Shown here piece by piece: positions 33,807 through 51,765 of a stretch of DNA of 64,000 nt. The position numbers and the translations under genes were made by a program. The stretch is from Verrucomicrobiaceae bacterium (GTDB lineage Bacteria; Verrucomicrobiota; Verrucomicrobiia; Verrucomicrobiales; Akkermansiaceae). The number at the start of each line of letters is the position of its first letter. The stretch's first letter is position 1. The notes beneath the pieces are model-generated. The model was given only the letters and a program-made list of their open reading frames with translations. It was not told the origin of the DNA and ran no database searches. The stretch spans positions 62,001 through 126,000 of the forward strand of contig JAIXWR010000034.1 of NCBI GenBank assembly GCA_027491155.1, in the 5' to 3' direction.

Positions 33807-34592
33807 TCAGCGGCTGGCGGTCACGGCCTTCGGCTGGCGCGACTTGAGGGCGCTGTCGGACTCGCCGTCGGCCCACGCGCGGTAGGCCTCGTCGGTCACG
33901 ACTTCCATCTGGCCGAGCATGTTGCCGTGGCCTTCCCCGCAGAGCTGGCCGCAGACGACGGAAGTTTCGAGCGTCTTGTTCGGCGTGAACCACATCGGGA
34001 ATTCCTTGCCCGGGATGGCGTCCTGCTGGATGCGCATCGGAACGATGGAGTAGTTGTGGATCACGTCGTTGGAACCAATGTTCAAGATGGCCGGACGGCC
34101 CTTTGCGATCTTGAGGATCGAGGTGGTGAAATCGTCCTGGGCATTGGGATCGTTGAAGCCGCTCGCCGCGTCACTGTTGCTGGTGCGGACCAGCGGATCG
34201 ATGCGGCCGAACTTCCCGTCCTTGCCGGGGTAGTGGTAGGTCCAGCCGAACTGCCAGCCAATGACCCGAACGCGGACGGGATCGAGCTTCTGAACCTTCT
34301 CCCAAGTGTCGGTGCGCTCCTTCCAGAGCGGGATCGCGAAGCCAAGCAAAAGCACGGCCTCGATGATCACCACGGCAATCTCGAGGTGACTGGAAAGGTG
34401 ATTGCGGACCCCATGATAGGAGGCCTTCGGGTTTGCCGAGGCGCGGAAGCGAATCAGGCAGTAGAGGAAGAACAGGGTCCACCCCACGAAGAGCGCGATC
34501 ATGAACCAGTGGACCACGTCGATGAGGTGGTCGACCCGGCCGCCGTGGGCGGAGAAGTTTTCGGGGATGCCGAGGAGTTTCGAGGGACTCAT
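33807..34592 (-). CDS. ctaC: Cytochrome c oxidase subunit II (CuA)
   Basis: CuA-bearing subunit of the caa3/aa3-type oxidase, which takes electrons from cytochrome c in the periplasm. 261 residues with two N-terminal transmembrane segments (about 24-48 and 70-90) and a cupredoxin domain. All CuA side-chain ligands are present: His179, Cys214, Cys218, His222 and Met225 (VCGQLCGEGHGNM). Between the cysteines Gln replaces the common Glu, which contributes only a backbone carbonyl. There is no C-terminal heme c domain, so it is not a classical caa3 fusion. Last gene of the operon. Confidence 0.92.
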   Translation of the reverse strand: MSPSKLLGIPENFSAHGGRVDHLIDVVHWFMIALFVGWTLFFLYCLIRFRASANPKASYHGVRNHLSSHLEIAVVIIEAVLLLGFAIPLWKERTDTWEKVQKLDPVRVRVIGWQFGWTYHYPGKDGKFGRIDPLVRTSNSDAASGFNDPNAQDDFTTSILKIAKGRPAILNIGSNDVIHNYSIVPMRIQQDAIPGKEFPMWFTPNKTLETSVVCGQLCGEGHGNMLGQMEVVTDEAYRAWADGESDSALKSRQPKAVTASR

Positions 34593-35169: not shown

Positions 35170-35538
35170 TCACCAGCGGGCATCCTTTTCGGACCCGGGG
35201 ACGCCGTCGCCGAAGCCGTTGTAGTGGATCGGATCCCATTTCGCGAGGGCGATCAGGGCGACCAGGAAAAACGCGGCGAGGATGCCGAAGCCGAAGAGCC
35301 AGTAGATCATCCGCTTCTCGTGGTTGAGATGCATGAAGATCGCCGCGACCAGGGTCGCCTTGACCGAGGCGATGAGGAGACCCAGGACCATGTCGGCCGT
35401 GTCAAAGCCGTGCTCGCCGAAGTCCAGCCATGGAATGGTGGCGACCATCACGGTGATGACGGTGCCGGCGAACAAGACCGCCCCGATCAACTTGTAGAGG
35501 CGGAGCGATTTCTGGATTGCTTCGGGAGAATCGGCCAT
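35170..35538 (-). CDS. ctaF: Cytochrome c oxidase subunit IV
   Basis: 122 residues, three transmembrane segments: IGAVLFAGTVITVMVATIPW, LLIASVKATLVAAIFMHLNH and WLFGFGILAAFFLVALIAL. VKATLVAAIFMHL is the typical core of bacterial COX4/caa3 subunit IV. Accessory inner-membrane subunit of the CtaCDE oxidase. It follows ctaE by 39 bp. Confidence 0.88.
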   Translation of the reverse strand: MADSPEAIQKSLRLYKLIGAVLFAGTVITVMVATIPWLDFGEHGFDTADMVLGLLIASVKATLVAAIFMHLNHEKRMIYWLFGFGILAAFFLVALIALAKWDPIHYNGFGDGVPGSEKDARW

Positions 35539-35577: not shown

Positions 35578-37248
35578 TTACATCAGGTAGAGGATCGGGA
35601 AGAGGAAGATCCAGACGAGGTCGACGAAGTGCCAGAAAAGGCCACCGACTTCCACCCGGTTGGCGAGCCACTCGGGGTTGCTGAGATACATCCGCTTGCC
35701 GCAGAAAAGGTAATAGGCCAGCACCAGCGCGCCGCCGACCACGTGGAGACCGTGGAGACCGGTCATCGTGAAGTAGATCGCGTAGTAGGTGTTCCAGGCG
35801 GGCGCGAACTTCGAGGCGAACTGGACCTGCTCGCGGGGCACGGTGAGGTGCGGGAAAGCACCGAAATGCTTGCCGTCCGGGTGAGGGACCTTTTCACGCA
35901 CCTTGTAATCGGGGCCGAAGAACTCTTCCTTGAAGTTCTCCTTGGCCTTGGGCATCGCATACTTGCCAGGGGTGATCTTGACGTCCTCGATCTTGGTCAC
36001 CGAGTAATAGGCCAGCTCCTGCCAACCGATGCGGTACTTGTCTTTCGCCGTCGGCTCCTTGCCCTTGGCCGCAAGCTCCTTGGTGAGCTGGGCCAGAGCG
36101 ACCTGCTGCTTTTCCCAGATCTTCTTCAGCTCCGGGCTCTCCTTGAGCAACCAGGAGTTCTCGATCGCGACCTTGGGGTCGATTCCCTTTCTCTCCGCCT
36201 CCATCACGAGATGGCGGAAGTCGATGGCATCGACGTAGTGGAAGACCATCGGGCTATCCACCAGCTTGCCCTTGAGGTTGGTGCCATCGCGCAGGTCGGC
36301 GGAGGCGGCGGCTTCCTTCACGTCGCGCGGCTTGAAGGAAAAGACCGTCGGAGGCTCGACCTTGAAGATGACCGAGGGTTGTTCCGGCATCAGCTGGCCG
36401 GCGATCGCCGCGGTGTCCACGGCCACCTGGTCGGCGATTTCCCAGTCGCGCTTGCCGGGGTTGGCCGCGTGGGCCTTCTCCCATTGCTCGCGCAGGTTGT
36501 CGGTGCGGACGGCCCCGTTGTTCTCGCGGGCGGCGAGATGGGCTTCCTTGACCGAATCGAGCAGCTCGACCGTCAGCGGGCTGCCGGCCTTGAAGCTGAC
36601 CGTCTTTTCCGGGGAAGTCTTCAGTTCGAGATCGGCTGCCAGCGTGATCGAGGCCTTCTGATCCGCCGCCCGGGCCATGATCGATTCGACCCAGGGCTTG
36701 TGGTGGCGGAGGGTGCTGAAGGAGAATTCGGCGGCCTCGAAATTGACCAGGTTCTCCTCGATCTTCCGGCCCTTGGCGTCCTTGGCGAGCTGGTCCTCGG
36801 TCGGCTGCTTGCCGTGCTCGACCTTCACGCCGTCCTTCACCTTGTAGCCGAGGTGGCCTTCGACGACCGTGTAGTCCTTCAGGCGGACGGCCTGGTGGTG
36901 GAACTTCACGTTGTACTCGATGCCCTTGAGCACCATGAAAACCAAGGAGCAGAACACGGTGATCGCCATGTAGATCTGGAACTTGCCCCACTGGCGCATC
37001 TTCAGCGACGCCCAGGCGAACACCACCGTGACCGAGGAGAAGATCAGCACGAAGGTGTTGATCAGGCCGGGCAGCACCGGGAGCGTCCGCTCCGGCCACG
37101 GGTAGTCGGCACCCAGGCGGAGGAAGATGTAGGCGGAGAAGAAACCTCCGAAGAGCATGACTTCCGACGCAAGGAACAACCAGATGGCGATCTTCGAGTT
37201 GAAGAGGCCCGTGTCCTTGCGCGGGGTGACGATGTAAGGAATTTCCAT
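35578..37248 (-). CDS. ctaE: Cytochrome c oxidase subunit III with a large insert
   Basis: Subunit III of the heme-copper oxidase, 556 residues against about 200 normally. The N-terminal part is standard: WLFLASEVMLFGGFFSAYIF, then two more membrane segments and the conserved Glu111 in KGIEY. The C-terminal part is also standard (YFTMTGLHGLHVVGG, then WHFVDLVWIFLFPILYL). Between them, about residues 115-478, lies a hydrophilic, charged segment of roughly 350 residues with no motif I recognise. The frame is intact and codon use looks like the neighbours, so it is not a frameshift or read-through. It would form a big soluble domain on one side of the membrane. Confidence 0.9.
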   Translation of the reverse strand: MEIPYIVTPRKDTGLFNSKIAIWLFLASEVMLFGGFFSAYIFLRLGADYPWPERTLPVLPGLINTFVLIFSSVTVVFAWASLKMRQWGKFQIYMAITVFCSLVFMVLKGIEYNVKFHHQAVRLKDYTVVEGHLGYKVKDGVKVEHGKQPTEDQLAKDAKGRKIEENLVNFEAAEFSFSTLRHHKPWVESIMARAADQKASITLAADLELKTSPEKTVSFKAGSPLTVELLDSVKEAHLAARENNGAVRTDNLREQWEKAHAANPGKRDWEIADQVAVDTAAIAGQLMPEQPSVIFKVEPPTVFSFKPRDVKEAAASADLRDGTNLKGKLVDSPMVFHYVDAIDFRHLVMEAERKGIDPKVAIENSWLLKESPELKKIWEKQQVALAQLTKELAAKGKEPTAKDKYRIGWQELAYYSVTKIEDVKITPGKYAMPKAKENFKEEFFGPDYKVREKVPHPDGKHFGAFPHLTVPREQVQFASKFAPAWNTYYAIYFTMTGLHGLHVVGGALVLAYYLFCGKRMYLSNPEWLANRVEVGGLFWHFVDLVWIFLFPILYLM

Positions 37249-37288: not shown

Positions 37289-39178
37289 TCAGTGGGCGGA
37301 AGGGGTGGCGGGCTTTTCGGCGGGCGCATCGGCACCGCGCTTCGGTTCCTCCCACTGCGGCAGGTAGTCCTCCTCGCAATCGGGGCGGCTGTATTCGTAG
37401 GGACCGCGGTAAACGGCGGGTTCCGTGAGGAAGTTGCCGTGGCCGGGAGGCGTCGGGGTGGCCCACTCGAGCGTGGTGGCGTGGTAGGGGTTGTCGCTCT
37501 CCACCTTGCGTCCGGTCTTCCAGGAAATGAAGAGGTTGATCACGAAGGGGATCTGCGCGAGCGCCATGGCCCAGGCGGCCCAGGACATGATGATGTTGAG
37601 GTCGATGTGCTCGGCCACCGAGTTGCCGAAGACGTTGACGCTGTCCTTCGCCTTGGCGAGGTAGGCGTCGCCGCCGTTGTACCAGCGGCGGTGGAAGCCG
37701 GCCATGCCCTGGGTGAGCATCGGGAAGAAGATCAGGTTCATGCACACCAGGCTGGGCCAGAAGTGCAGGTGGGACAGGAAGCCGCTCATGTGGCGGCCGG
37801 TGATCTTCGGATACCAGTGGTAGACGCCGGCGAAGAGGCCGAAGAGGATGCCGGGAGCCACCACGTAGTGGAAGTGGCCGATCACGTAGTAGGTGTCATG
37901 GAGGTGGAGGTCCACCAGGTTGAAGGCGAGCGGCAGGCCGGTGAGGCCGCCGATGCCGAACATCGGCAGGAAGGCGCAGGCCCAGACCATCGCCGGGGTG
38001 AAGCGGATCGAACCGCCCCACAACGAGATGATCATCGAGGTGATCAGGATCACCGACGGGATCGAGATCAGCACCGTGGTGGTCTGGAAGAAGGTCGAGA
38101 CGACCGGACCCATGCCGGTGAGATACATGTGGTGGGCCCACACGATGAAGGACAGGAAGCCGAGGACGAGCACGCCGTAAACCATCGACTTGTAGCCCCA
38201 GAGCGGGCGGCGGGTGTTGACCGGGATGATCTCGGCGACGCAGGCGATGGCGGGGAGCAGGAGCACGTAAACCTCCGGGTGGCCGAGGAACCAGAACAGG
38301 TGCTGGAACAGCAGCGGCGAGCCGCCGCCGGACAGGTCGGCCAGGCCTTCCTTCGCGGTGTAGAGGCCGGAAGGCATGAAGAAGGACGAGTGGCTGACGC
38401 GGTCCATCAGCTGCATGATGCCGGCGGCTTCCAGCGGCGGGAAGGCGAGCAGGAGGAGGAAGCCGGTGACGAGCATCGCCCAGACGAAGAAGGGCATGCG
38501 CATCCAGGTCATGCCGCGGGCTCGAAGGTTGATGATGGTGGTGATGAAGTTCACCGAGCCGAGCAGCGAGGAGGAGATCAGCAGCACGAGGCCGATCAGC
38601 CACTGGGTCTGGCCGGCGAGCCACTGGTTGACGATCTGGCCGTCGGCGAAGCCCGCGAGCGGCGAGTAGTTCGTCCAGCCTGACTTGGCGGCGCCGGACT
38701 CCATGAAGAACGAGGCGCACATCACCAGGCCGCCGGCGAGATACATCCAGTAGCTGGCCATGTTGAGGCGCGGGAAGGCCATGTCGACCGCGCCGATCTG
38801 GAGCGGGGTGATGTAGTTGCCGAAGGCCCCGAAGCCGAGAGGCACGATGCCGAGGAAGACCATGATGGTGCCGTGCATGGCTCCGAACATGTTGTAGGTC
38901 TCCCCGGTGACCTTGCCGTCGGCCAGCCAGCGGGCCTTCCAGTTGTCGCTGAAGAGCCAGGCCATCCATTCGGGCAGCGGCTGGTGCGGGTAGGCGATGC
39001 TCCAGCGCATCACCATCATCAGGTAGAAGCCGAAGGCGAGGAAGACCATCGCCGTCAGGCCGTACTGGATGCCGATCATCTTGTGATCGGTCGAGAACAC
39101 GTACTTCCGGAGGAAGCCGGGGTCGTGGTGATGGTCGTCGTGACCGTGATGGTCCGCAGTGGCAGCGTGTGAGCTCAT
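37289..39178 (-). CDS. ctaD: Cytochrome c oxidase subunit I (heme-copper, A type)
   Basis: Catalytic subunit that reduces oxygen to water and pumps protons; 629 residues, about 12 transmembrane segments. All metal ligands are present: His in FGAMHGTIM (low-spin heme), GHPEVY (CuB His and cross-linked Tyr), WAHHMY (two CuB His) and VIGHFHYVV (both hemes). The first 20 residues are rich in His and Asp (ADHHGHDDHHHD), a possible copper-binding extension. It is the only subunit I in the window with a full catalytic centre. Confidence 0.95.
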   Translation of the reverse strand: MSSHAATADHHGHDDHHHDPGFLRKYVFSTDHKMIGIQYGLTAMVFLAFGFYLMMVMRWSIAYPHQPLPEWMAWLFSDNWKARWLADGKVTGETYNMFGAMHGTIMVFLGIVPLGFGAFGNYITPLQIGAVDMAFPRLNMASYWMYLAGGLVMCASFFMESGAAKSGWTNYSPLAGFADGQIVNQWLAGQTQWLIGLVLLISSSLLGSVNFITTIINLRARGMTWMRMPFFVWAMLVTGFLLLLAFPPLEAAGIMQLMDRVSHSSFFMPSGLYTAKEGLADLSGGGSPLLFQHLFWFLGHPEVYVLLLPAIACVAEIIPVNTRRPLWGYKSMVYGVLVLGFLSFIVWAHHMYLTGMGPVVSTFFQTTTVLISIPSVILITSMIISLWGGSIRFTPAMVWACAFLPMFGIGGLTGLPLAFNLVDLHLHDTYYVIGHFHYVVAPGILFGLFAGVYHWYPKITGRHMSGFLSHLHFWPSLVCMNLIFFPMLTQGMAGFHRRWYNGGDAYLAKAKDSVNVFGNSVAEHIDLNIIMSWAAWAMALAQIPFVINLFISWKTGRKVESDNPYHATTLEWATPTPPGHGNFLTEPAVYRGPYEYSRPDCEEDYLPQWEEPKRGADAPAEKPATPSAH

Positions 39179-39202: not shown

Positions 39203-39961
39203 TTACTTGGCTTCCGCCGGTTCAAGGGTGATGGGGTCGAGCATCGTCTTGGGATCGAGGGCGTCGCCCGGAAGGTTCTTCGTGTGATCGGCCGCCAGCT
39301 CCTCGCCGGTGACCGCCGTGCCGACTTTTGGCCGGGCATTGGAGATTTCAAGGCCTGCGGCACCCATCTGTTTGGTGACCACGTCGCCGGTCTTGTTGCC
39401 GAAGGAATTGCGGATGTAGGTCATCAGGGCCCCGAGGTCCTCGCCCTTCATGCCGGCGCCCTGGGCGGGCATCACGCCGTAGGTCTTGCCGGTGGAAGCC
39501 GGGCCGCTGAGGCCGTTGAGGATGACCATCGCAAGCCGCTCCGTCTCGCCGGTGACCCAGGCGGACCCGGCGAGCGAGGGGTAGGCGTTGCCGTCTCCCT
39601 TGCCGTCGGGACCGTGGCAGCCGCTGCACTTGCTGTAGAGCTTGGCACCCTTGGCCATGTAGGCGGCGAGGGCGTCCTTCGGCGGCGGGCCGCCGGCCTC
39701 GTCATCGGCCGGGATCACCCGGACGTAGCCGTCCTTCACGGTGTCCTTGTAGGAGAAAAGCGTGCCGGCGTTGCCGAGCGCCCAGCCGGCGGAGAGCAGC
39801 GGGATGGCGCAGAGCACCATCACGGTGAGGGAGACCGGTTCGGCACCGTTCTCCTTGATCTTGTTCTCGCGGGCGGCGGCGGCGGCCCCGCGGACGACGC
39901 GGTCGTGGGCTTCGGTGACATTCACCGATTCCTCGAGGTCGGGCTTGGAAGGATCGATCAT
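39203..39961 (-). CDS. Membrane-anchored monoheme cytochrome c (second copy)
   Basis: 252 residues: cytoplasmic N terminus (about 1-43), one transmembrane helix (about 44-62), then a periplasmic class I cytochrome c domain with CSGCH at 112-116 and a distal Met in GVMPAQGAGM. The segment LAGSAWVTG...TYIRNSFGNK closely matches the cytochrome encoded before ccoN, so the two are paralogues. It holds the position of CcoP after ccoO but has one heme, not two. Likely an electron shuttle between the complex III part and the oxidase. Confidence 0.85.
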   Translation of the reverse strand: MIDPSKPDLEESVNVTEAHDRVVRGAAAAARENKIKENGAEPVSLTVMVLCAIPLLSAGWALGNAGTLFSYKDTVKDGYVRVIPADDEAGGPPPKDALAAYMAKGAKLYSKCSGCHGPDGKGDGNAYPSLAGSAWVTGETERLAMVILNGLSGPASTGKTYGVMPAQGAGMKGEDLGALMTYIRNSFGNKTGDVVTKQMGAAGLEISNARPKVGTAVTGEELAADHTKNLPGDALDPKTMLDPITLEPAEAK

Positions 39962-39980: not shown

Positions 39981-40727
39981 TCAGCCCTGGGGTGCGGCGG
40001 CGGCGGCGGCGGCAGGTGCTGGCTCGGCCGGCTTGGCCGGGGCGGGGTTCATCGAGGCGGGAAGAGCGTCGTCGCGCTTCATGGCCAGCAGGTAGTCGAC
40101 GAGCGCTTCGGCTTCGGCGCTCGGCACGACGCAAGTTCCTTCGGGAGCCTCGACGGGCAAGGCCTCGGTCGGGCATTGGCCGGTGATTTTTTTCTCCTCG
40201 AAGAGGAAGCGGTAGGAGGGGCAAGTCGAGGTCGGGCGCTCGGGATTGCCGCGGGGATTGTAGAGGTGGAGATAGAGCCAGGTCTCGGGGCTGGCACCGC
40301 TTTCCTTGGTGTAGAGGGCTTCGACGCGGCGCCCGATGTTCGAAAGGTCCGGGCCCAGGCGGTTCACGCCGATCTGCGCGAACTTCTCGGCCTGATAGTC
40401 GAAGACGTTCGACTCGCGGCGGGTGTCGCCGCGGGCCTCGTCGGCCTTCAAGCCGGCCCAGTCGGGGCGGCCGAGGTCGTTGCCGGCGTAGGTCGGGCGG
40501 ATGAGCTGGGTGTGGCAGAGGTAGCAGCCGTTGGCGGCATACACCTGCGCGCCGTTGGCCACGCGGCCGGTGGTCTTCGGGTGGTAGATGCCCGTCTTGC
40601 CGTCGGCGATTTCATCGAAAGCCACCGGGGCCACCGAGCGCATCGAGAAGAACGGGTAGATCACCAGGGCCGTCCACGGGAGGAGGAAGGCGAAGGTGAG
40701 TCCGAAGGCGAATTGGCGGAAGGACAT
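39981..40727 (-). CDS. ccoO: CcoO-like monoheme subunit
   Basis: Homologue of cbb3 oxidase subunit II, 248 residues: one N-terminal membrane helix (about 7-27) and a cytochrome domain with CYLCH at 68-72 in the CcoO-typical context GCYLCHTQLIRP. In known CcoO the heme Met ligand sits in a motif of the type S-x-MPAYP; here the position reads STCPSY (Cys169). A segment with two further cysteines (GQCPTEA and EGTCVV) follows. Ends with a Pro/Ala-rich tail. It follows the CcoN-like gene by 47 bp. Confidence 0.85.
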   Translation of the reverse strand: MSFRQFAFGLTFAFLLPWTALVIYPFFSMRSVAPVAFDEIADGKTGIYHPKTTGRVANGAQVYAANGCYLCHTQLIRPTYAGNDLGRPDWAGLKADEARGDTRRESNVFDYQAEKFAQIGVNRLGPDLSNIGRRVEALYTKESGASPETWLYLHLYNPRGNPERPTSTCPSYRFLFEEKKITGQCPTEALPVEAPEGTCVVPSAEAEALVDYLLAMKRDDALPASMNPAPAKPAEPAPAAAAAAAPQG

Positions 40728-40774: not shown

Positions 40775-42289
40775 TTAGTGCGAGTGGGCGGGCGCGGAAC
40801 CGGGGCCGGCATTGTCGATGTCGCCCTCGGGACCGTGGGTGGCATCGTGGAGGTCGTCGTGGTGCGCGTGGCCCAGAAGGGTCGGATGCGAGCTGCGGCG
40901 GCCGAGGCGGAGCCACATCAGGGCGAGGTGGAGGAAGAAGAAGACGTTCGAAAGCAGCAGGAAGCACCACGAAAGCGTGGAAGCCACGGCGTAGGGATAG
41001 GCGTATTCCATCGCATTCTCCCAGGGCTGCTTGTAGTCCTCCTGGGCCTGGCCTTGCATGATCCCGCCGAAAACGGCGACCAGCGCCACGGTGAGGAGGC
41101 CGTAGACCGAGAGGAAGAAGTGGATCTTGATCAGGCGGCTGGAGAGCCACTCGCGGCGGGTGATCCGAGGCACCACGAAGTAGATCATGCCGAAGGCGAT
41201 GAAGCTGAACACGCCGTAGAGGGCGAGGATGTCGAAGCCGTAGCCGGAGAGGCTGAACTGGCTGAGGGGCAGGATGGCCGGGACGTTCAGGAAGGTGGCG
41301 GCGAAGCCGAGGACGAGCAGGCCGATCACGCCGGCGACGGTGAAGCGCAGCGAGGGGCTGTTGACCACGGTGTCCCAGGCGCTGGCGGCGGTCTTGAGCA
41401 GGTTGACGCTGACCGCGATGGCCGGGATGGCGATCAGGATGGTGGCGGCGGCCCCGAGGTAGGGCAGGAAGGCGGGGATCGGCGCACCGGCGAGCTTTTG
41501 CATGCCGGCCCAGGGGGCGATGACGGCGAGGGACCAGAAGCCGAGAAGCGACAGGGTGTAGCTGTAGACCGGGCGGCCGGTGACCTTCGGGATCAGGTAG
41601 TAGGCGGCGGCGAGGGCGGTCGGGATGAAGAACAGGAAGACAAGCGCGGAGCGATACCAGGCATTGACCGCGGCGGCCATCAGCGGGCTGCCGGAGAAGC
41701 CGTGGATGAGGAAATGCGCGGTGACGAAGACCCAGGGGAACCAGATCAGGGCGGCCAGGTTGTACCACTGGGAAATGAACACGTGGCCTTCCGGGCGGAC
41801 CTTGAACTGGATCATCGACCAGATGGCGATGGCGGCGTAGGAAACCAGCATGGGCACCCAGGCGAAGCTCGGGAACTCCATCCACGGGATGCCGGTGCCC
41901 TTGCCGGCGAGGATGCCGAACAGGCCGATGGAAACGGCGAGGTTCCAGACGTGGCCGGCGGTCAGGATCAGGCCGGCGGCGCGGCATTCCTGGCGCGACA
42001 GGCGGGCCATCAGCCAGACCAGCATGCCGAAAGCGGCCTGGCAGCCCCAGCCGTAGATCAGCGCGCTCATGTGGGCCGGCTGGACGCGGCCGTAGGTCAG
42101 CCACGACACGCCGTCGAGGAAGCCCGGGCTATGGACCTTGGCGGAGGAGATGATGCCGAGCAGGATGGCCACGGCGAGCCAGGCGGCGCCGCTGGTGAAG
42201 AAGAACATCACCGGATGGCGCAGCGAGCGGTCGATCTCCGCGCGGCGTGCCGCATCGGCCGCCGGGTTGGTGGTGGAAGCTTGGGACAT
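40775..42289 (-). CDS. ccoN: CcoN-like heme-copper oxidase subunit I without catalytic ligands
   Basis: Homologue of cbb3 oxidase subunit I, 504 residues, about 12 transmembrane segments. Fold and spacing match CcoN, including YYLIPKVTGRPVYSY. The TM2 heme ligand His73 (QPAHMSA) is kept. The CuB site is gone: the canonical WYGHN is WYRSA (211-215) and the HH pair after WAG is MQ (263-264). The canonical H-x-H of TM10 is replaced by GFDILALYG (351-359). There is no histidine at all between residues 197 and 389. The C-terminal tail is His-rich (GHAHHDDLHDATHG). The protein cannot bind CuB or heme b3 in the known way, so it is not an oxygen reductase. It may carry heme b or quinone, or be structural. 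Confidence 0.85.
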   Translation of the reverse strand: MSQASTTNPAADAARRAEIDRSLRHPVMFFFTSGAAWLAVAILLGIISSAKVHSPGFLDGVSWLTYGRVQPAHMSALIYGWGCQAAFGMLVWLMARLSRQECRAAGLILTAGHVWNLAVSIGLFGILAGKGTGIPWMEFPSFAWVPMLVSYAAIAIWSMIQFKVRPEGHVFISQWYNLAALIWFPWVFVTAHFLIHGFSGSPLMAAAVNAWYRSALVFLFFIPTALAAAYYLIPKVTGRPVYSYTLSLLGFWSLAVIAPWAGMQKLAGAPIPAFLPYLGAAATILIAIPAIAVSVNLLKTAASAWDTVVNSPSLRFTVAGVIGLLVLGFAATFLNVPAILPLSQFSLSGYGFDILALYGVFSFIAFGMIYFVVPRITRREWLSSRLIKIHFFLSVYGLLTVALVAVFGGIMQGQAQEDYKQPWENAMEYAYPYAVASTLSWCFLLLSNVFFFLHLALMWLRLGRRSSHPTLLGHAHHDDLHDATHGPEGDIDNAGPGSAPAHSH

Positions 42290-42319: not shown

Positions 42320-43123
42320 TCAGGGCTTGATCAGGTCGGCCTCTTTGAGCATCGGCTTGCCGACTTCGGAGCGCAGCATCTTGACCTGTTCCGGCAGCAC
42401 GGCGGAGGCCTTGTTGCCGAAGCTGTTGCGGATGTAGGTGAGGACCGCCGCGATCTGCTCGTCGGTCTGGTGGGCCAGCGCGGCCATCGGCGCAGGCGGC
42501 GTGTAGGTCGCGCCCTTGAGCTGGATCGGACCTTCGAGGCCGCGGAGCTGGATGCGGATGAGATTGGAAACCGGGCCGGTGACCCATTCGGAGCCGGCGA
42601 GGGTCGGGCCGATCGGGCCGCCTTCGCCGGTCGGGCCGTGGCAGACGAAGCAGGTGCCGCCGCCCATGAACTGGGCCTTGCCGGCTTCGAGTAGGGCGGG
42701 ATCGATCGGGGCGTCGGCGGCGGGCGTGAGGGCGTCGACCGCGGCGACATCGACCTTCGGCTCGTTGGCGGCGGCAAGCTGGCGATCGGAACCCGGCACG
42801 ATCTGCTCGGGCTTGGCCACGGCAACCGGCTTCTCGGCAAGCAGGCCTTGCCCGACCAGCGGGAACACGTCGTGCGGCGGAACCTGGACGACCTTGCCCT
42901 TCTCCACTTCCTTGTAGGCGAAGGCGGCCTTCTGCGCGGCTTCCACCGCGGCGCGCGTCTCGTAGCGCTTGGCCGCCGCGGCCTCCTCAAGCGGGTTCGG
43001 CCGGTCGCCGGAACCGCTGAAAAGCTTGATCGCGAGCAGGATCACGCCGAACAGCATGAACACGCCGAGCGCCCACCAGAAGGCGGTGAAGCGGACGAAG
43101 GGATTGTCGCTGGATGAGGACAT
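42320..43123 (-). CDS. Membrane-anchored monoheme cytochrome c (first copy)
   Basis: 267 residues: one transmembrane helix (about 13-34), a long Ala/Glu-rich linker (about 45-140), and a C-terminal cytochrome c domain with CFVCH at 158-162 and a distal Met in TPPAPMAAL. Paralogous to the cytochrome gene downstream of ccoO (shared LAGSxWVTG and TYIRNSFGNK). Located between actF and the ccoN-like gene, it is a good candidate for linking complex III to the downstream modules. Confidence 0.85.
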   Translation of the reverse strand: MSSSSDNPFVRFTAFWWALGVFMLFGVILLAIKLFSGSGDRPNPLEEAAAAKRYETRAAVEAAQKAAFAYKEVEKGKVVQVPPHDVFPLVGQGLLAEKPVAVAKPEQIVPGSDRQLAAANEPKVDVAAVDALTPAADAPIDPALLEAGKAQFMGGGTCFVCHGPTGEGGPIGPTLAGSEWVTGPVSNLIRIQLRGLEGPIQLKGATYTPPAPMAALAHQTDEQIAAVLTYIRNSFGNKASAVLPEQVKMLRSEVGKPMLKEADLIKP

Positions 43124-43166: not shown

Positions 43167-44552
43167 TCAGTTCGAGACGTTGGCGGATTCGAGGATGCGG
43201 GGGTCGCGGTGCGGATAGACGGCGGTCTGGGTCAGCGCGCGGAGGTAGAAGAAGACGAAACCGGAGCCGATGGCGATGAAGGCGAAGATGTCGAACCAGA
43301 AGGCGCCCGGGACCGAGGTGGTCACGTCCTTGAAGACAGAGAGTTCCTTCATCCAGTCGGCGGTCGGGAAGTTCGCCATGCGGTAGAGCGAGACGGAGCG
43401 CTCCGGGATGGTGATGATGTAGTGGTCGAGCACGTGCATCGCCAGGGTGTAGCCGGCCATGATGCTGAGCAGCTTCGGGTTCTTCTTGAGCCAGGCCTGG
43501 AGCAGGATGACGAAGGGGATGACGAAGTGGCCGAAGACCAGGGCGATGCTGCCGGTGTTCCAGCCGCCGGTGTTGCGGATGAGGTACCACGAGGTTTCCT
43601 CGGTGATGTTCGCATACCAGATCAGGAAGAACTGGGAGAAGGCGATGTAGGCCCAGAAGATGGTGAAGGCGAGCAGCAGCTTGCCCATGATGTGGAAGTG
43701 CTCGGGACCGGTCACCTTCTTCAAGTAGCCGCCCTTCTGGAGCAGCGTGCAGGTGATGATGATCACCGCCATCGAGTTGAGCGCGGCACCGGCGAAGAGG
43801 TAGACGCCCCACATGGTGGAGAACCAATCGTACTTCATCCCTTGCAGCAGGTCGATGCCGGCGAAGGTGATGGTGATCGCGAAGATGATCAGCGTGTAGG
43901 TCGAGTGGAAGCGGGCCTTGAAAAGGTTCTTCGTGCCGGGGTTCGGATCGGTGTCCTGGTCCACGGAGAACTTGCGCAGGGCGCGGATCACGAGACCGAG
44001 GCCGATGAAGTAGAAGGCGAAGCGGACATACCAGGCGAACAGGTTCATGTACCAGAGCTTGTTCACCAGCAGCGCCTCGTGCTTGGACTCGAGCGCCGCC
44101 TTCATCGAATCGCTGCCGTAGAAGCCGGCCATGAAGCCGTCGAAGTAGCCGCCGCCCGCGGCGCGGTGAATGTTCATCCACTCGAACAGGTATTTCTGCA
44201 CCGCCGGGCAAGCGAAGGGGATCGCGAAGAGGGCCATCCAAGGGAAGACCGATCCGAGGTTTTCCATCACGCGGCGGACCGAGGTCCCCCACCCCGAGTT
44301 GGAGACGTTGTGGAGGAGGGTCCAGAAGCAGCCGCCGACCGCGAGGGTGAAGAAGAAGAAGAACGCGAAGAGCCAGGAGTAGGCGAACTGCGCGGTGATC
44401 TTGCCCGGGGCGAGGAACAGGAAGTAGGCGCTGACCAGGCCGGTCAATGCGGCCGTGCCGCCGGCGATGCGCTTGGCGGACTCGACCTTGGAATTGACGA
44501 GGCGCTCGCCGTCGACCGGGATGTCGGCTGAGGTTACGAAGTGGTGTGCCAT
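43167..44552 (-). CDS. actF: Alternative complex III subunit F (quinol:cytochrome c oxidoreductase)
   Basis: Integral membrane subunit of alternative complex III, 461 residues with about ten transmembrane segments; a smaller relative of ActC (NrfD/PsrC fold). Segments such as FFFFTLAVGGCFWTLLHN, SVFPWMALFAIPF and ITFAGIDLLQGM are recognisable. In the complex ActC and ActF form the paired membrane modules thought to bind quinone and move protons. It follows actE by 21 bp. Confidence 0.88.
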   Translation of the reverse strand: MAHHFVTSADIPVDGERLVNSKVESAKRIAGGTAALTGLVSAYFLFLAPGKITAQFAYSWLFAFFFFFTLAVGGCFWTLLHNVSNSGWGTSVRRVMENLGSVFPWMALFAIPFACPAVQKYLFEWMNIHRAAGGGYFDGFMAGFYGSDSMKAALESKHEALLVNKLWYMNLFAWYVRFAFYFIGLGLVIRALRKFSVDQDTDPNPGTKNLFKARFHSTYTLIIFAITITFAGIDLLQGMKYDWFSTMWGVYLFAGAALNSMAVIIITCTLLQKGGYLKKVTGPEHFHIMGKLLLAFTIFWAYIAFSQFFLIWYANITEETSWYLIRNTGGWNTGSIALVFGHFVIPFVILLQAWLKKNPKLLSIMAGYTLAMHVLDHYIITIPERSVSLYRMANFPTADWMKELSVFKDVTTSVPGAFWFDIFAFIAIGSGFVFFYLRALTQTAVYPHRDPRILESANVSN

Positions 44553-44573: not shown

Positions 44574-45263
44574 TTACTGGGCCGGGTTGGCGATGCCCTT
44601 GTCGAAAGCTTCCTTGACGGCGTCGTAAGGAGCCTTGCGGGCGGTTTGGAGGGCGCGGACGTAGGCGACGACGGCCCAGCGGTCGCGCAGGGCGATGTTG
44701 TGCTTGTAGCCGCCCATGTTCCCCTTGCCGTAGGAGATGGTGTGGAAGAGGCGGCCGTCGGGATAGGCGGCGGGGAACCAGTTCTCCTGGGTCAGGTTGG
44801 CGATGCCGGGCACACCGTAGTTGCTGGTGACGCCGAGGCCGTCGCCGGAGATGCCGTGGCAGATGGCGCAGTGGATGCCGTAGACTTCCTCGCCGCGCTT
44901 GAGGAAGGCGGTCACGTTGCCCGCCTCAAGCTTGAGTTCCTCGGGCATGCCGTTGCCGAAGTAACCGTCGATGCCGCCGGTGGCGTAATAGCCGGTGCCG
45001 CCGCCGAACTCCGGATCGTGGATGCCGCCGAGGTCGGGATTGCCGGTCGAGCTGAAGCCGAGCGGCTGGGTGCCGGCGACCGGAAGCCGCGAGCCCTGGC
45101 CGTCGGCGAAGAAGCCGGAGGGCTTCTGGGCCTTCAGCACGTCCTGCTCGTCCATGTCGGGGAACAGTCGGATCGGGGTGTTCGGGGATTTCGCGCCCCG
45201 CGTCGGCATGAGGCCGATGAAGAGGACCGCGATGACCGCGTAGGCGAGGAAGAAGTATTTCAC
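44574..45263 (-). CDS. actE: Alternative complex III subunit E, monoheme cytochrome c
   Basis: 229 residues with an N-terminal signal or anchor (about 1-20) and a C-terminal cytochrome c domain: CAICH at 132-136, distal Met probably in KGNMGGYK. The preceding acidic and Gly-rich part (about 30-120) resembles ActE proteins. Starts with GTG (45263). It accepts electrons from ActA/ActB and passes them to soluble or membrane cytochromes. Confidence 0.9.
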   Translation of the reverse strand: MKYFFLAYAVIAVLFIGLMPTRGAKSPNTPIRLFPDMDEQDVLKAQKPSGFFADGQGSRLPVAGTQPLGFSSTGNPDLGGIHDPEFGGGTGYYATGGIDGYFGNGMPEELKLEAGNVTAFLKRGEEVYGIHCAICHGISGDGLGVTSNYGVPGIANLTQENWFPAAYPDGRLFHTISYGKGNMGGYKHNIALRDRWAVVAYVRALQTARKAPYDAVKEAFDKGIANPAQ

Positions 45264-45270
45264 GGATCTG

Positions 45271-45305
45271 AAACTTGGAACTTGGACCTTTTCACTTGGA
45301 ACTTC
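45271..45305 (-). repeat. Interspersed repeat, copy 4 (inverted)
   Basis: The same motif pair in the opposite orientation to the other copies: on the minus strand GAAGTTCCAAGTG followed by a partial copy (GTCCAAGTTCCAAG). It fills the gap between actD and actE. Confidence 0.75.
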
Positions 45306-45315
45306 GGGTTGCCCG

Positions 45316-45870
45316 TCAGTCCTCTTCTTCGACGAGTTCGATGCTCTTGCCGCCGATGTCCTCGAGGAACTTGCGGGTGCCTTCGGCGCTGAATTTCGGG
45401 TCGCGGGCCTCGACGGCGATGAAGAAGGCGTCGTCGGTGGCGCGGTGGAACTGGCGGCTCGCGAACAGCGGGTGGTTGAGGCGCGGCAGCTTCATCAGGG
45501 CAAGCAGGCCGAACAAGGTCGCGAAACCGGAAAACAGGATCGTCAGCTCGAACATGATCGGGAAGAAGGCCGGCACGGTGAAGATGTTCACCGGCTTGGC
45601 CTGGACTACGGTCGGGTAGATCTCGACCTGCGTCACGTAGGCGAGCCCGAAGCCGGTGGCGGTGCCGAGCATGCCGCCGAAGAAGACGAACCAGGGGAGG
45701 ATCGAGCGCTTCATGCCCATCGCGGCGTCCAGCCCGTGGACGGGATAGGGCGAGTGGCAGTCCCACTTGCGGAAGCCGGCATCGCGCACCTTTTCGGCCG
45801 CCTTGTAGAGGGCGGAGGCGCTGGAGAATTCGGCGAGGTAGCCGTAGACGCGTTTGCGGGTAGTACTCAC
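45316..45870 (-). CDS. actD: Alternative complex III subunit D (DUF3341)
   Basis: Peripheral/membrane subunit of 184 residues: cytoplasmic N-terminal ferredoxin-like domain (about 1-60, KRVYGYLAEFSSASALYKAA), two transmembrane helices (about 64-90 and 105-130) and a C-terminal cytoplasmic part. This is the DUF3341 layout of ActD. GTG at 45870 is the preferred start; the upstream in-frame extension is translated repeat sequence. Confidence 0.88.
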   Translation of the reverse strand: MSTTRKRVYGYLAEFSSASALYKAAEKVRDAGFRKWDCHSPYPVHGLDAAMGMKRSILPWFVFFGGMLGTATGFGLAYVTQVEIYPTVVQAKPVNIFTVPAFFPIMFELTILFSGFATLFGLLALMKLPRLNHPLFASRQFHRATDDAFFIAVEARDPKFSAEGTRKFLEDIGGKSIELVEEED

Positions 45871-45874
45871 TGTT

Positions 45875-45906
45875 GAAGTTCCAAGTGAAGAAGTTCCAAG
45901 TGCCAA
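45875..45906 (+). repeat. Interspersed repeat, copy 5 (GAAGTTCCAAGTG type)
   Basis: GAAGTTCCAAGTG and GAAGTTCCAAGTGCCAA separated by two bases, the most regular copy. It fills the gap between actC and actD. Confidence 0.85.
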
Positions 45907-45916
45907 GGAAGACGAA

Positions 45917-47413
<1,497 letters not shown>

Positions 47414-47466: not shown

Positions 47467-50400
47467 TCAGTGCATGTGGATGGTCGCTTTGCCGATCCAC
47501 TGGTGATCGGGCATTTTCTCGTTCGGGTTCTTCACCCGGGCGAGGTAGCTGGTGCGCGGCGCGGTCCCGATGTAGTTGAGGAGGTCGTAGTTCCGCTCGA
47601 TGCCCTTGGCGCGCATCATGGCGGACTTGTCGCCGTCGAGCTTGTTGCCGAAGGAGATCGCACCGGCCGGGCAGGCTTCCTGGCAGGCGACCTTCACCGA
47701 ATCGACCGGGATGCGGAGCGTGGCGGTGGTCACCGCGGAATCCGGCGAGGCCTTGCCGGCGAGCAGGGCTTCCTGCTTCTGGCCGCGCTTCTGGCGGATC
47801 TTGGCGTCCTTGAGGCGCTGCACGCAGTAGGTGCACTTTTCCATCACGCCGCGCATGCGGACGGTGACGTTCGGGTTGCGCTGGAGGTGCGGCGCCTCGC
47901 CGACCTGCTTCTCGCCGAAGGGACCCTTGTAAAGGTTGTGGGCGACCAGCGGGTTGCGCTTGTTGTAGTCGAAGAAGTTGAAGCGGCGGGCCTTGTAGGG
48001 GCAGTTGTTCGCGCAGTAGCGGGTGCCGATGCAGCGGTTGTAGGCCATCGCGTTGAGGCCGTCCTCGGTGTGGACGGTCGCGTTGACCGGGCAGACCGTC
48101 TCGCAGGGCGCGCTCTCGCACTGGACGCAGGCGACCGGCTGGGGAACCAGCGCGGGGTTGCCGGGGTCGAAATCGTTGCCCTTGTCGACCGCGTAGTAGC
48201 GGTCCATGCGGATCCAGTGCATCTCGCGGCCCTTGGCGAGCTGCTGCTTGCCGACGATCGGGATGTTGTTTTCCGACTGGCAGGCGACGAGGCAGGCGTT
48301 GCAGCCCATGCAGGACGACAGGTCGATGGTCATCGCCCACTGGTGCAGCGGGTCGCTGAGCAGCGGCTTGCCGGCGCGGTCCTGCTGCTTGTAGAGCGAG
48401 ATGTTCGGCGGGGCGTGGCCGTCGTTGCCCTGCAGCTTCACGTTGTGGAGCTGCTCGGCGAAGTCGCCCTTGTGGTCGCCGGAGTCGATGGTGGAGATCT
48501 CGCGGGCCAGCGCGCGGCCGTACATCGCGTGGTGTTCCTGGACCACGGCGATCGGGTAGCGCTTGCTCGTCTTCTCAACCGTCGCGCCGGTGGCGAAATA
48601 AGCGGTGGCGGCGGTGCGGACGGGGTAGGCGTTGAAGCCCGAGTTCACGCCGACCTGGCCGACGTGGCTGGCGGGCGCGCTGCCGGCGGCATTGCGGTTG
48701 AACTTGTCCTCGCCGTCGAAGCCCTGGCCGTAGCCGAGCGGGATGACGATGGTGTTTTCGGCCTGGCCGAAGGAGATCATCACGGGAATCTCGATCTCGG
48801 TGCCGTTCACCTTGACCTTGATCATCGGGGCGGTGCGGTGCTCGCCTTCACCGTCGGGGCCGGTCGCGCCGTTCCAGGTTTCGAGGGCCACGATCTCGTC
48901 GTAGATGCCCATGTCCTTCGCGGTCTGCGGCGCGATGAGCGCGGCATTGTCCCAGGACTGCTTGGTGATCGGATCGGGAGCTTCCTGGAGCCAGCCGTTG
49001 TCGATCCAGCGGCCGTCGTAGACCGAGGCGTCGGTGGCGAAGACCACGTCGAAGGTCTTGTCCGGGGAAGCGGGCAAGGCGGCGACGGCGGTGTCGGGCA
49101 CCTTGACCTCGGCAACCTCGTAGGTGGAGCCGGCGTGGAAGCCTTCGCGGAGCAGCTTGCGCCAAGGCTCGCTGCCCTTGCCGCCGATCGCTTCGAAGGT
49201 TTTCTTCACCGCGTCGTGGGCGGGCGAGGGCGTGCCGCCCTCCCCTTCCCCGGTGACCAGCTTGCCGTCATCGGTGAGCAGGGCGGAAAGGAGTTCCAGC
49301 TCGCTGACGCACTCGCCGTAGAGCGGCAGGATCATCGGCTGGACGACGGTGTAAACGCCGTTGGCCGAGCGGGCGTCGGACCAGCTTTCGAGGTAGTGGC
49401 TGGCGGGAACGTGCCAGGTGGAAGCGTGGGCGGTGGCATCGCTGCGGCCGCCGAGGTGGATCACGGTCTTGGCCTTGGCGAGCGCCTCGCCGAACTTCAG
49501 GTCGGCGGGGGCGTCGAGGACCGGGTTGGCCGGCGTGAGCAGGACGAGGGTTTCGACCGTGCCGTTCTCGAGGTCGGTCTTGAGGGAAACCAGATCGCCG
49601 AGGCCCTGGGCATCGGTGCGGACGTAGTGGAGCGGCTTGTCCTTGCCGACATTGCCGAGCTTTTCGTTGATAGCGGCGACGAGCACGTGGAAGGGCTGCG
49701 GCAGGCGGCTTCCGGCAAGCACCAAGGACTTGCCCTTGGAAGCAACCAGATCGTCGACCATGGCGGTCACCCACTTCAACGTCTTGTCGGCGGGGTTGAT
49801 GGGAACGGTCGGAACCGCAATCTGCAACCGCTGGGCGATCAGGGCGGTGATTTCAAGCAACTGGCCCGGCCGCACCCGCAGGCGGTGGTCGGCCATGCCG
49901 CCGGTCATCGAGAAGGCGCTCTCGATCGAGTAGAGGCGGTTCATCCCCGCGGCGTCCGGCTTGGCGGAGTAGGTCTTCCCTTCCGGCTTGCGGCGGTCGA
50001 AGAAGGGGGTCACCGGGCCTTGCGGGTCGAGCGAGGCGAAGTCGCAGTCGATCGACAGGATGCGGTCGGCCTTCGAGAAATCGGCCACGGCGCGGACGCC
50101 GTCGCCGAGAACCTTGGAGGCGCTGCCTTCGAGGGCCTCGTAGGCGTAGAACTTCGCGGCGGAGAACTTGGCGGTCAGTTCCTTGACCAGGCGGGCGCGG
50201 GTCGGGGAGACGTCGTGGCCGAACACGAAGCCGATCTTGGCGGACTTGTCGGCGGCGAGGCCGGCGATGACGGCTTCGAAGTCGGCGCGGGGCGCTGGCT
50301 GGCCCTGCTTGAGGACCTTGCGCGAGCGGGACGGGGAGTAAAGGTCGAGGACCGAAGCCTGCGCGAAGGCATCGGTGCCGGCGGCGTCCGGATGCAGGGA

Positions 50401-50793
50401 GTTGGCGGTGACCTTGGTCGGCCGGCCTTCGAAAGTGGTGACGACCAGCGGGGTGGCGCCGGCGGCGCGGGGCATGCTGGAGGCGTAGTAGGTCGCCTTG
50501 CCCGGGATGACCCACTCGGGGGCCTTGTTGTAGGGGACGATGTAGCTTTCCGGGCGGCGGCAGGCGGCCATGCCGAAGCCGGCGAGGGCGGTCGAGGCGC
50601 CCATCAGCTTGAGGAACGAACGGCGCGAGGTCTCGGCGTCTCCCTCGTTGGCCATTTCAGCGACTCCCTGCGGGAACTCGCGCTCCATCCAGGTGCGGAA
50701 AGCGGGGGTGTCCTCGAGTTGGCCGAGGCCGCGCCAGGACACGGTGGTCTCGTCGGCGGGGACTTCGGGGTGTTGCCAGATGCGTTTGCTCAT
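47467..50793 (-). CDS. actB: Alternative complex III subunit B (molybdopterin-like plus Fe-S)
   Basis: Large periplasmic subunit, 1108 residues. The N terminus has a Tat-type motif (SRRSFLKLMG). Residues to about 750 are a molybdopterin-oxidoreductase-like fold that in this family carries no molybdenum cofactor. From about residue 820 there is a ferredoxin-like HybA/PsrB domain with cysteine sets CMGCNACLVAC, CVQCESAPCETVC, CIGTRYCANNCPY and CTYC...CQEACPAG, fit for three [4Fe-4S] and one [3Fe-4S] cluster. It passes electrons from quinol to the hemes of ActA and ActE. Full-length and intact. Confidence 0.94.
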   Translation of the reverse strand: MSKRIWQHPEVPADETTVSWRGLGQLEDTPAFRTWMEREFPQGVAEMANEGDAETSRRSFLKLMGASTALAGFGMAACRRPESYIVPYNKAPEWVIPGKATYYASSMPRAAGATPLVVTTFEGRPTKVTANSLHPDAAGTDAFAQASVLDLYSPSRSRKVLKQGQPAPRADFEAVIAGLAADKSAKIGFVFGHDVSPTRARLVKELTAKFSAAKFYAYEALEGSASKVLGDGVRAVADFSKADRILSIDCDFASLDPQGPVTPFFDRRKPEGKTYSAKPDAAGMNRLYSIESAFSMTGGMADHRLRVRPGQLLEITALIAQRLQIAVPTVPINPADKTLKWVTAMVDDLVASKGKSLVLAGSRLPQPFHVLVAAINEKLGNVGKDKPLHYVRTDAQGLGDLVSLKTDLENGTVETLVLLTPANPVLDAPADLKFGEALAKAKTVIHLGGRSDATAHASTWHVPASHYLESWSDARSANGVYTVVQPMILPLYGECVSELELLSALLTDDGKLVTGEGEGGTPSPAHDAVKKTFEAIGGKGSEPWRKLLREGFHAGSTYEVAEVKVPDTAVAALPASPDKTFDVVFATDASVYDGRWIDNGWLQEAPDPITKQSWDNAALIAPQTAKDMGIYDEIVALETWNGATGPDGEGEHRTAPMIKVKVNGTEIEIPVMISFGQAENTIVIPLGYGQGFDGEDKFNRNAAGSAPASHVGQVGVNSGFNAYPVRTAATAYFATGATVEKTSKRYPIAVVQEHHAMYGRALAREISTIDSGDHKGDFAEQLHNVKLQGNDGHAPPNISLYKQQDRAGKPLLSDPLHQWAMTIDLSSCMGCNACLVACQSENNIPIVGKQQLAKGREMHWIRMDRYYAVDKGNDFDPGNPALVPQPVACVQCESAPCETVCPVNATVHTEDGLNAMAYNRCIGTRYCANNCPYKARRFNFFDYNKRNPLVAHNLYKGPFGEKQVGEAPHLQRNPNVTVRMRGVMEKCTYCVQRLKDAKIRQKRGQKQEALLAGKASPDSAVTTATLRIPVDSVKVACQEACPAGAISFGNKLDGDKSAMMRAKGIERNYDLLNYIGTAPRTSYLARVKNPNEKMPDHQWIGKATIHMH

Positions 50794-50835: not shown

Positions 50836-51537
50836 TCAGTGGTGGCAGGTGGCGCAGCTGGCCTTCGGGGCGATCTGCCAGTGCTCCTTGAGCTTGAGGC
50901 CGAGGTCCTCGGTCGTCTTGATGCCGGCGTCCTTGGTGTATTTGGTCACGTCGGCGTCGCTGTAGTTCAGGTTGTAGACTTCCTCGAGCGGGCGGAGGTG
51001 CTTCTCCGGCGCGTTGTGGCACTCGAGGCACCAGCCCATCGAGAGGCTGTGCTGCTGGTAAACTACTTCCATCTGGTCGACGCGGCCGTGGCAGCTCTGG
51101 CAGGAAATCCCGCGGTTCAAGTGGGCCGAGTGGTCGAACTTCACGTAGTCCGGGGTCTTGTGGATGCGGACCCACTCGATCGGCTTGCCGAAGTCCGGGT
51201 GCTTGAGCAGCGGGTCCATCCGGTCGCGCAGCGGCTGGAGCTTCGGGCTGTCCTTCTGGACGTGCTGGTGGCAGTTCCAGCAGGTGTTGTTGCTCGGGAC
51301 GTTCGAGTGGCCGGCGACATCCACGAAGGAGTGGCAGTAGCGGCAGTCGAGGCCGAGCTGGTCGACGTGGATCTTGTGCGAAAACGGGATCGGCTGGGAC
51401 GGCATGTAGCCGGCCGCGAGGGTCTTCGGCGTCGCGTAATAACTGAAGGCGAGCACGGCGCCACCGGCCACCGCGCCTGCACAAATGGCGATCTTCAGAG
51501 GGAGGAAATTGGTCCAGCGCGGGAAGAAATTGGCCAT
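50836..51537 (-). CDS. actA: Alternative complex III subunit A, pentaheme cytochrome c
   Basis: First gene of the respiratory operon. 233 residues with one N-terminal membrane helix (about 12-33) and five c-type heme motifs: CRYCH 65-69, CWNCH 86-90, CQSCH 146-150, CLECH 170-174 and CATCH 228-232. Five hemes and this spacing are those of ActA. ATG 51537 is chosen; the open frame runs on upstream without meaning. A CRP/FNR-type palindrome lies about 45-60 bp in front. Confidence 0.94.
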   Translation of the reverse strand: MANFFPRWTNFLPLKIAICAGAVAGGAVLAFSYYATPKTLAAGYMPSQPIPFSHKIHVDQLGLDCRYCHSFVDVAGHSNVPSNNTCWNCHQHVQKDSPKLQPLRDRMDPLLKHPDFGKPIEWVRIHKTPDYVKFDHSAHLNRGISCQSCHGRVDQMEVVYQQHSLSMGWCLECHNAPEKHLRPLEEVYNLNYSDADVTKYTKDAGIKTTEDLGLKLKEHWQIAPKASCATCHH

Positions 51538-51578
51538 GACGGTAATGCGTCGGGATGCTCGGCGGCGAGAATTTGGGC

Positions 51579-51600
51579 GCTTGTGAAATTTTTCACAAGC
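51579..51600. promoter_or_regulatory. CRP/FNR-type operator upstream of the act operon
   Basis: A perfect palindrome with 9-bp arms (GCTTGTGAA and TTCACAAGC) around 4 bases. Its core is TGTGA-N6-TCACA, the classic CRP consensus. The centre is about 53 bp before the actA ATG. It lacks a T run on the minus strand, so it is not a terminator for the gene upstream. The regulator itself is not in the window. Confidence 0.6.
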
Positions 51601-51765
51601 TCTTTTGCAGCACCGGGAGAAGGTTGTTCCGGCGCGGCCGCCGAGTTTGCAAACCACCCCTCCGCTGGCAACCGGAAAAACCGGAGCTTTCCCGAATTTT
51701 CCCAACTTTCCCTTGCTCCGCCGGATTCCTCGATGAGCTTGTCCGGTTTTTGGCGGCAAGGGCGC

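Follow-up and report, generated by a model that had tools for sequence, protein, structure and literature searches.

The window analyzed here, a stretch of 64,000 nucleotides from a genome of the Verrucomicrobiaceae, encodes on its minus strand an operon in which the genes occur in the order actA-B-C-D-E-F, cytochrome c, ccoN-like, ccoO-like, cytochrome c, coxA, coxC, coxD-like, a small ORF, and coxB. The named genes and the cytochromes are as follows.

50836..51759, minus strand: ActA, with five CxxCH motifs and the sixth heme motif absent
47467..50793, minus strand: ActB, iron-sulfur subunit
45917..47413, minus strand: ActC, NrfD-like quinol subunit
45316..45906, minus strand: ActD
44574..45263, minus strand: ActE, mono-heme cytochrome c, named by its place
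43167..44552, minus strand: ActF (match to 6f0k_F, 9.6e-47)
42320..43123, minus strand: mono-heme cytochrome c encoded ahead of the CcoN-like gene, its C-terminal domain closest in PDB to the c domain found in fusions of copper nitrite reductase
40775..42289, minus strand: CcoN-like subunit of 504 aa with a CcoN fold, dead in that the binuclear centre is absent
39981..40727, minus strand: CcoO-like mono-heme subunit (FixO) that retains CxxCH and has Cys169 instead of the axial Met
39203..39961, minus strand: mono-heme cytochrome c that matches CcoP weakly and retains both CxxCH and the axial Met, the proposed electron exit
37289..39178, minus strand: CoxA, subunit I of an A-type oxidase (top NCBIfam model CtaD_CoxA, 543 bits against a cut-off of 671)
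35578..37248, minus strand: CoxC, labelled from place and sequence
35170..35538, minus strand: CoxD-like small subunit, labelled from place
33807..34592, minus strand: CoxB, with the CuA motif and the heme c motif absent

Because the best profile for CoxA is that of an A-type subunit I, the operon has an oxidase gene besides the ccoN-like one, and we presume CoxA (37289–39178) to be its active oxidase. A 168-aa ORF (45260–45766, minus strand) considered as ActD was rejected as lying in the wrong frame; it overlaps the true actD (45316–45906) in another frame, has a dS far below its dN, and illustrates that ORF length is misleading in DNA of 65% GC.

Ligand positions of the CcoN-like protein

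The ccoN-like ORF has an ATG start and an intact reading frame. Its kinship with cbb3 subunit I, which the initial annotation had drawn by eye, is borne out by a Pfam COX1 match over residues 27–439 (E value 6.8e-45) and by five PDB sequence matches (E value of 0.001 or less), all of them to cbb3 subunit I. Structure modelling, suggested in the same annotation, gave an AlphaFold model (mean pLDDT 84.7, pTM 0.87) whose seven top Foldseek matches are cbb3 CcoN chains and which superposes on 3mk7 with TM scores of 0.82/0.88–0.89 and an rmsd of 2.3, so that the CcoN fold is retained. As a reference for ligand positions we used a canonical CcoN-CcoO fusion (L002, G000:C14), which is the genome's third COX1 protein, and the following positions were identified by alignment.

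42071..42073, minus strand: His73, the sole ligand histidine retained (position of the TM2 low-spin heme ligand)
41648..41650, minus strand: Ser214 at the first CuB His position (WWYGHN to AWYRSA, aligned with L002)
41516..41518, minus strand: Ala258 at the cross-link Tyr position
41495..41500, minus strand: Gln264-Lys265 at the CuB His-His pair (GPHHL to GMQKL, aligned with L002)
41228..41236, minus strand: Phe352-Asp-Ile354 at the H-x-H of both b hemes (GHVHS to GFDIL, aligned with L002)

One of the six ligand histidines, H73, is kept. The initial annotation had reported the change from WYGHN to WYRSA, the loss of the TM10 H-x-H, the absence of histidine between residues 197 and 389, and H73 as the only remaining ligand, and all four readings hold; its placement of MQ at the HH pair is one residue off, as M263 aligns with the Pro of GPHHL. 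The cross-link Tyr, which we take to be Tyr251 of P. stutzeri CcoN, precedes the HH pair, with six residues from it to the first H.

The window protein scores 115 bits against the NCBIfam ccoN equivalog model, which has a cut-off of 583 bits, and the canonical CcoN of the same genome scores 627 bits. We dropped a score below this cut-off as a mark of a dead protein because three intact relatives linked to act genes also fall short (217, 253, and 235 bits). An assignment as an NO reductase was likewise rejected: NorB, a distant fold relative, needs its His ligands and an H-x-(Arom)-x-E motif, and the window protein reads WYRSALVFL at that position. Compared with the cbb3 oxidase CcoN (3mk7, 8smr, 6xkw), the window protein shares the fold, the length, the COX1 Pfam domain, and a CcoO-like partner, but it is without five of the six histidines and the Tyr, whereas intact sister proteins in ACIII operons bear all ligands. 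By the features tested, it is a homologue of CcoN in descent and fold and not a C-type oxidase, and the most fitting classification is that of an ACIII-linked CcoN variant without catalytic function.

Relatives in Verrucomicrobiota and their loss history

A first set, drawn from the best 80 of 103 confirmed loci in records of Verrucomicrobia (or of a member group) plus relatives, gave 103 distinct window-type sequences; some match, canonical CcoN included, was present in 36 of the 38 relatives' genomes. The gene order recurs across the loci of this set, in which the ligand positions other than that of H73 are mostly lost. We then searched 387 Verrucomicrobiota genomes, sampled evenly across a larger group, with the family profile, which matched in 123 of them; matches above 200 bits of the ACIII-linked CcoN type were found in 92. 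An act gene lies upstream in 91 of these 92 genomes; the remaining locus, L205, stops at the contig end. The copy is dead in 64 of the 92 genomes and intact, that is, with the Tyr and the histidines, in 28, one of the latter being a fragment without the TM2 region.

Ligands were counted in a filtered alignment of 186 rows, in which loci with the gene order of the window are termed window-order. Intact rows have six of six ligand histidines without exception (27/27). Among the 104 window-order dead rows, 87 keep one histidine, 12 keep two, 2 keep three, and 3 keep none, and the 42 other dead rows keep one (22 rows), two (3 rows), or none (17 rows). The three CuB histidines never occur together in a dead row, and the histidine of the high-spin heme persists in a single dead row (L174). 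Tyr occupies the cross-link position throughout the 40 intact rows, of which 12 belong to the outgroup, and in none of the dead rows. Since relatives that are 93% to 32% identical show a like loss, the missing ligands are not the result of chance or bad sequence. We rejected a misalignment that conceals ligands elsewhere in the protein, the outcome that the initial annotation had named as contrary to its reading, because the core of the window protein aligns with L002 with few gaps and core histidine counts are low (median of 6 in window-order dead, 5 in other dead, and 14 in intact proteins). One copy of family f8 (L154) has six histidines in the entire protein.

Synteny was counted for those dead loci that have 4.5 kb or more of downstream sequence (n = 117). 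Genes of the act cluster lie upstream in 112 of these (73 of 78 window-order loci and 39 of 39 others) and in 24 of 24 intact loci. A coxA gene lies downstream in 70 of the 117 dead loci, namely 64/78 window-order and 6/39 others, and in 1/24 intact loci. We therefore rejected as a simple rule that CcoN dies once aa3 joins the operon, which fits the window-order loci but not the others, and the loci are not independent of one another. Both dead and intact states are present in family f9. Other intact CcoN-like proteins (L168 and L156–L166) are encoded beside a weakly CcoO-like gene, without a strong act match nearby; in the tree described next, L157, L164, and L168 fall between the act-linked clade and canonical CcoN.

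The seven diagnostic columns were left out of the alignment for a maximum-likelihood tree, in which all 71 act-linked rows group in a single clade (100/100) separate from canonical CcoN. Parsimony on this careful tree requires three losses to account for the dead rows, and a quick tree gave two; a single origin of the dead rows occurs in 0 of 200 bootstrap trees, well-supported branches alone force just one loss, and an AU test rejects one dead clade at a borderline level (p = 0.032). The dead rows L219 and L174 have an intact relative, from family f7, as their neighbour in the tree (support 85–86/98–99, unstarred). More than one loss of CcoN function appears likely from these trees, though not proved, because the branches are long.

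In pairwise NG86 comparisons with four relatives, the ccoN-like gene has dN/dS values of 0.126, 0.134, 0.104, and 0.210, which indicate that it is under purifying selection. Values for actA, B, C, E, and F, coxA, B, C, and D, the cytochromes, and ccoO range from 0.05 to 0.40, a range that leaves out the small ORF (0.30–0.67), the wrong-frame actD ORF, and the cycP2 gene of L004, where the contig ends before the gene. The central claim of the initial annotation, that the oxygen-reducing centre has been lost and the gene maintained within its operon, is upheld by the alignments, by the 64 dead copies in 92 genomes, by a dN/dS of 0.10–0.21, and by synteny.

Partner cytochromes and possible roles

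Of the 117 dead loci, 114 have a CcoO-like gene adjoining that for CcoN (78/78 window-order and 36/39 others, leaving three non-window-order loci without one), as do 24/24 intact loci. Its CxxCH motif is present in every ORF detected, 134/134 dead-linked and 26/26 intact-linked, and the neighbour in the window (39981–40727) has both the FixO profile and the motif. A second model, that of this neighbour (mean pLDDT 76), has five matches with an E value below 0.001, all to CcoO chains, with TM scores of 0.41–0.57 and an rmsd of 10–11 Å, and weakly backs its kinship with CcoO. One further position of this subunit was identified by alignment.

40221..40223, minus strand: Cys169 of the CcoO-like gene, in place of the canonical S-x-M-P-x-Y Met

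This Met, the axial heme ligand of CcoO, is found in 28 of 28 distinct intact sequences, and 89 of the 134 distinct dead ones no longer have it. Window-order sequences (n = 92) have Cys in 80 cases, Met in 11, and Ser in one, and other dead sequences (n = 42) have Met in 34 and another residue or a gap in 8. We predict from this that the window-order CcoO-like subunit carries a His/Cys heme c. Cys ligation probably lowers the potential of the heme, which would make it unlikely that the CcoO heme lies on the main electron path. In the downstream cytochrome, the axial Met is retained at all 161 loci and CxxCH at 160 of them; the window's copy has one heme motif, whereas CcoP has two. The upstream cytochrome has its axial Met in all 48 aligned heme-bearing copies, and 14 of its 96 dead-linked ORFs are without CxxCH.

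ACIII-aa3 and ACIII-caa3 supercomplexes of F. johnsoniae and R. marinus likewise have actABCDEF and A-type cox genes in one operon, and the window differs from them by the CcoN-CcoO-cytochrome cassette between act and cox. The link in R. marinus is the c domain of caa3, which we take to sit on subunit II, and the link in F. johnsoniae is a mobile sixth heme of ActA. The heme c motif of CoxB is absent in 65 of 65 dead-linked loci and in the one intact-linked locus, and ActA has five CxxCH motifs in 67 of 87 loci, four in 14, three in 6, and six in none. On these counts, neither of these two kinds of link, which are described in PMC8552683, is seen.

We think it somewhat likelier to be right than wrong that the window protein is a retired cbb3 subunit I which no longer catalyses and has been retained as a transmembrane subunit or scaffold of the ACIII respiratory unit. 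The ancestral ACIII operon would have borne a working C-type oxidase (ccoN-ccoO-cyc), and in several lineages, including that of the window, O2 reduction would have been handed over to an A-type oxidase. CcoN would have lost CuB, heme b3 and, in the window, most of the low-spin heme site, and would have been retained as a frame that anchors mono-heme cytochromes c beside ACIII, in physical assembly with ACIII and aa3. Electrons would flow from menaquinol through ActB/ActA and ActE to the partner cytochrome or cytochromes c (39203–39961, perhaps also 42320–43123) and on to CuA of CoxB and CoxA. Most simply, dead CcoN would hold in place the cytochromes c that ferry them from ActE towards CuA. 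In a cbb3 oxidase, electrons pass from CcoP to CcoO, heme b, and b3/CuB. With heme b gone, as we infer, the CcoO heme would be without an acceptor and its ligand free to change, whereas that of the outward cytochrome would not be; the changed Met of CcoO and the kept Met of the cytochrome are in line with a CcoO heme left without an acceptor and a cytochrome that took over as the exit. Among the roles listed in the initial annotation, a scaffold combined with electron transfer fits best, with the amendment that the transfer would run through the neighbouring c-type subunits and not through CcoN; the sequence analysis turned up nothing in favour of a quinone module or a proton channel.

Several observations count against parts of this proposal. 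Coupling to aa3 is often not apparent from the operon, as 33 of 39 non-window-order dead loci have no coxA downstream; such genomes have other COX1-family genes elsewhere. Three of these 39 loci also have no CcoO-like gene adjoining CcoN. The Cys that replaces the CcoO Met is itself conserved (80/92), more than relaxation predicts, and a purely structural role leaves the retention of H73 unexplained; a five-coordinate or religated heme b may be present. ACIII and aa3 could instead be linked by soluble cytochromes. For the fuller history, in which a whole oxidase was absorbed into ACIII, stripped more than once, and now serves as an adaptor to the A-type oxidase, with the CcoO heme religated by Cys in the lineage of the window, our confidence falls a little short of an even chance.

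Retention of H73 in 100 of the 103 window-type members would be accounted for if the protein bound one b-type heme, with H73 and a new partner as ligands, and acted as a small membrane redox relay or sensor. Three dead copies (L116, L144, and L145) have lost the binuclear centre and retain both low-spin heme ligands, and they may represent a heme b-only intermediate stage. We nevertheless regard a heme b relay as unlikely, because 101 of the 103 window-type members have I, V, L, or M where the partner ligand would be and the TM2 His is also gone in many other dead members (among the 186 rows, replaced by A in 16, Q in 13, F in 7, S in 3, E and L in one each, and R in L180). Less probable again is a pure assembly or structural factor for the cytochromes c or aa3 without a part in electron routing. 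The data that favour the scaffold favour it too, and the usual sixth ligand of the CcoO heme is lost in many dead lineages, but the near-invariant CxxCH and Met of the downstream cytochrome point to a working heme. A new catalytic, quinone-binding, or proton-translocating role in the emptied cavity is very improbable. W441 (101/104) and N448 (102/104) are newly conserved in the group of the window; however, several Gly or Ala positions, as judged from the sequence alignment, have become bulky there (G to W at 441 in 101/104, G to F, L, or Y at 218 in 100/104, and A to F at 450 in 82/104), and the 14 positions kept in the intact and both dead sets comprise three W, three G, three P, two L, and one each of D, N, and F. 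Finally, that the gene is a pseudogene on its way out is scarcely credible: the lost ligands and the fast branches of some dead lineages would fit this reading, but the dN/dS values, open frames, and synteny across the family contradict it.

ACIII-linked loci published as cbb3 oxidases

Loci of the same type have appeared in print as oxidases (relevant sections of PMC8498564, PMC6688271, and PMC11102522). The review PMC8498564, citing Refojo 2010, places a C-type oxidase beside ACIII only in verrucomicrobial methanotrophs and Opitutaceae, the pertinent passage of PMC6688271 ties the high O2 affinity of Methylacidiphilum to an ACIII-adjacent cbb3 oxidase, and cbb3-type enzymes are listed among the oxidases in parts of PMC10205796 and PMC11102522. 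Four genomes of family f8 have two to four matches each to PF02461 (pmoA), two other genomes having none, and we take these four to be Methylacidiphilaceae, methanotrophs for which "cbb3" is in print. Their act-linked copies (L152–L155) are dead, with S, E, S, H, F, V at the six ligand positions in L153–L155 and A, D, A, H, Q, T in L152, and each is followed by coxA, coxC, and coxB; in L154 the actC matches are split over two separate ORFs. Each genome has one family profile match, compared with two in the genome of the window (canonical CcoN included), and none has a ccoN above the NCBIfam cut-off, which intact act-linked relatives also miss. The 472–534 aa COX1 proteins of these genomes have H-x-Arom-x-E and HH-x-Arom-Arom, motifs of NO reductases (for H-x-Arom-x-E, see the motif as given in PMC3084760), and no working C-type oxidase was found in any of the four. 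In a table of PMC13274419, three genes directly after actABCDEF of Verruconatronum alginivorum are labelled "caa3 (2)"; by their position, these might be a CcoN-CcoO-cytochrome cassette.

An earlier report of a ligand-less CcoN in ACIII operons was not found in our search of the open-access literature. The heme-copper oxidase survey PMC3084760 discarded sequences without the six histidines, and a dead but conserved branch would escape such a survey. Genome papers that rely on annotation, in turn, count this branch as a high-affinity oxidase, and published counts of working oxidases appear to include some dead copies. If the protein is indeed an adaptor, it would provide a testable answer to how electrons pass from ACIII to aa3 when both known links are absent.
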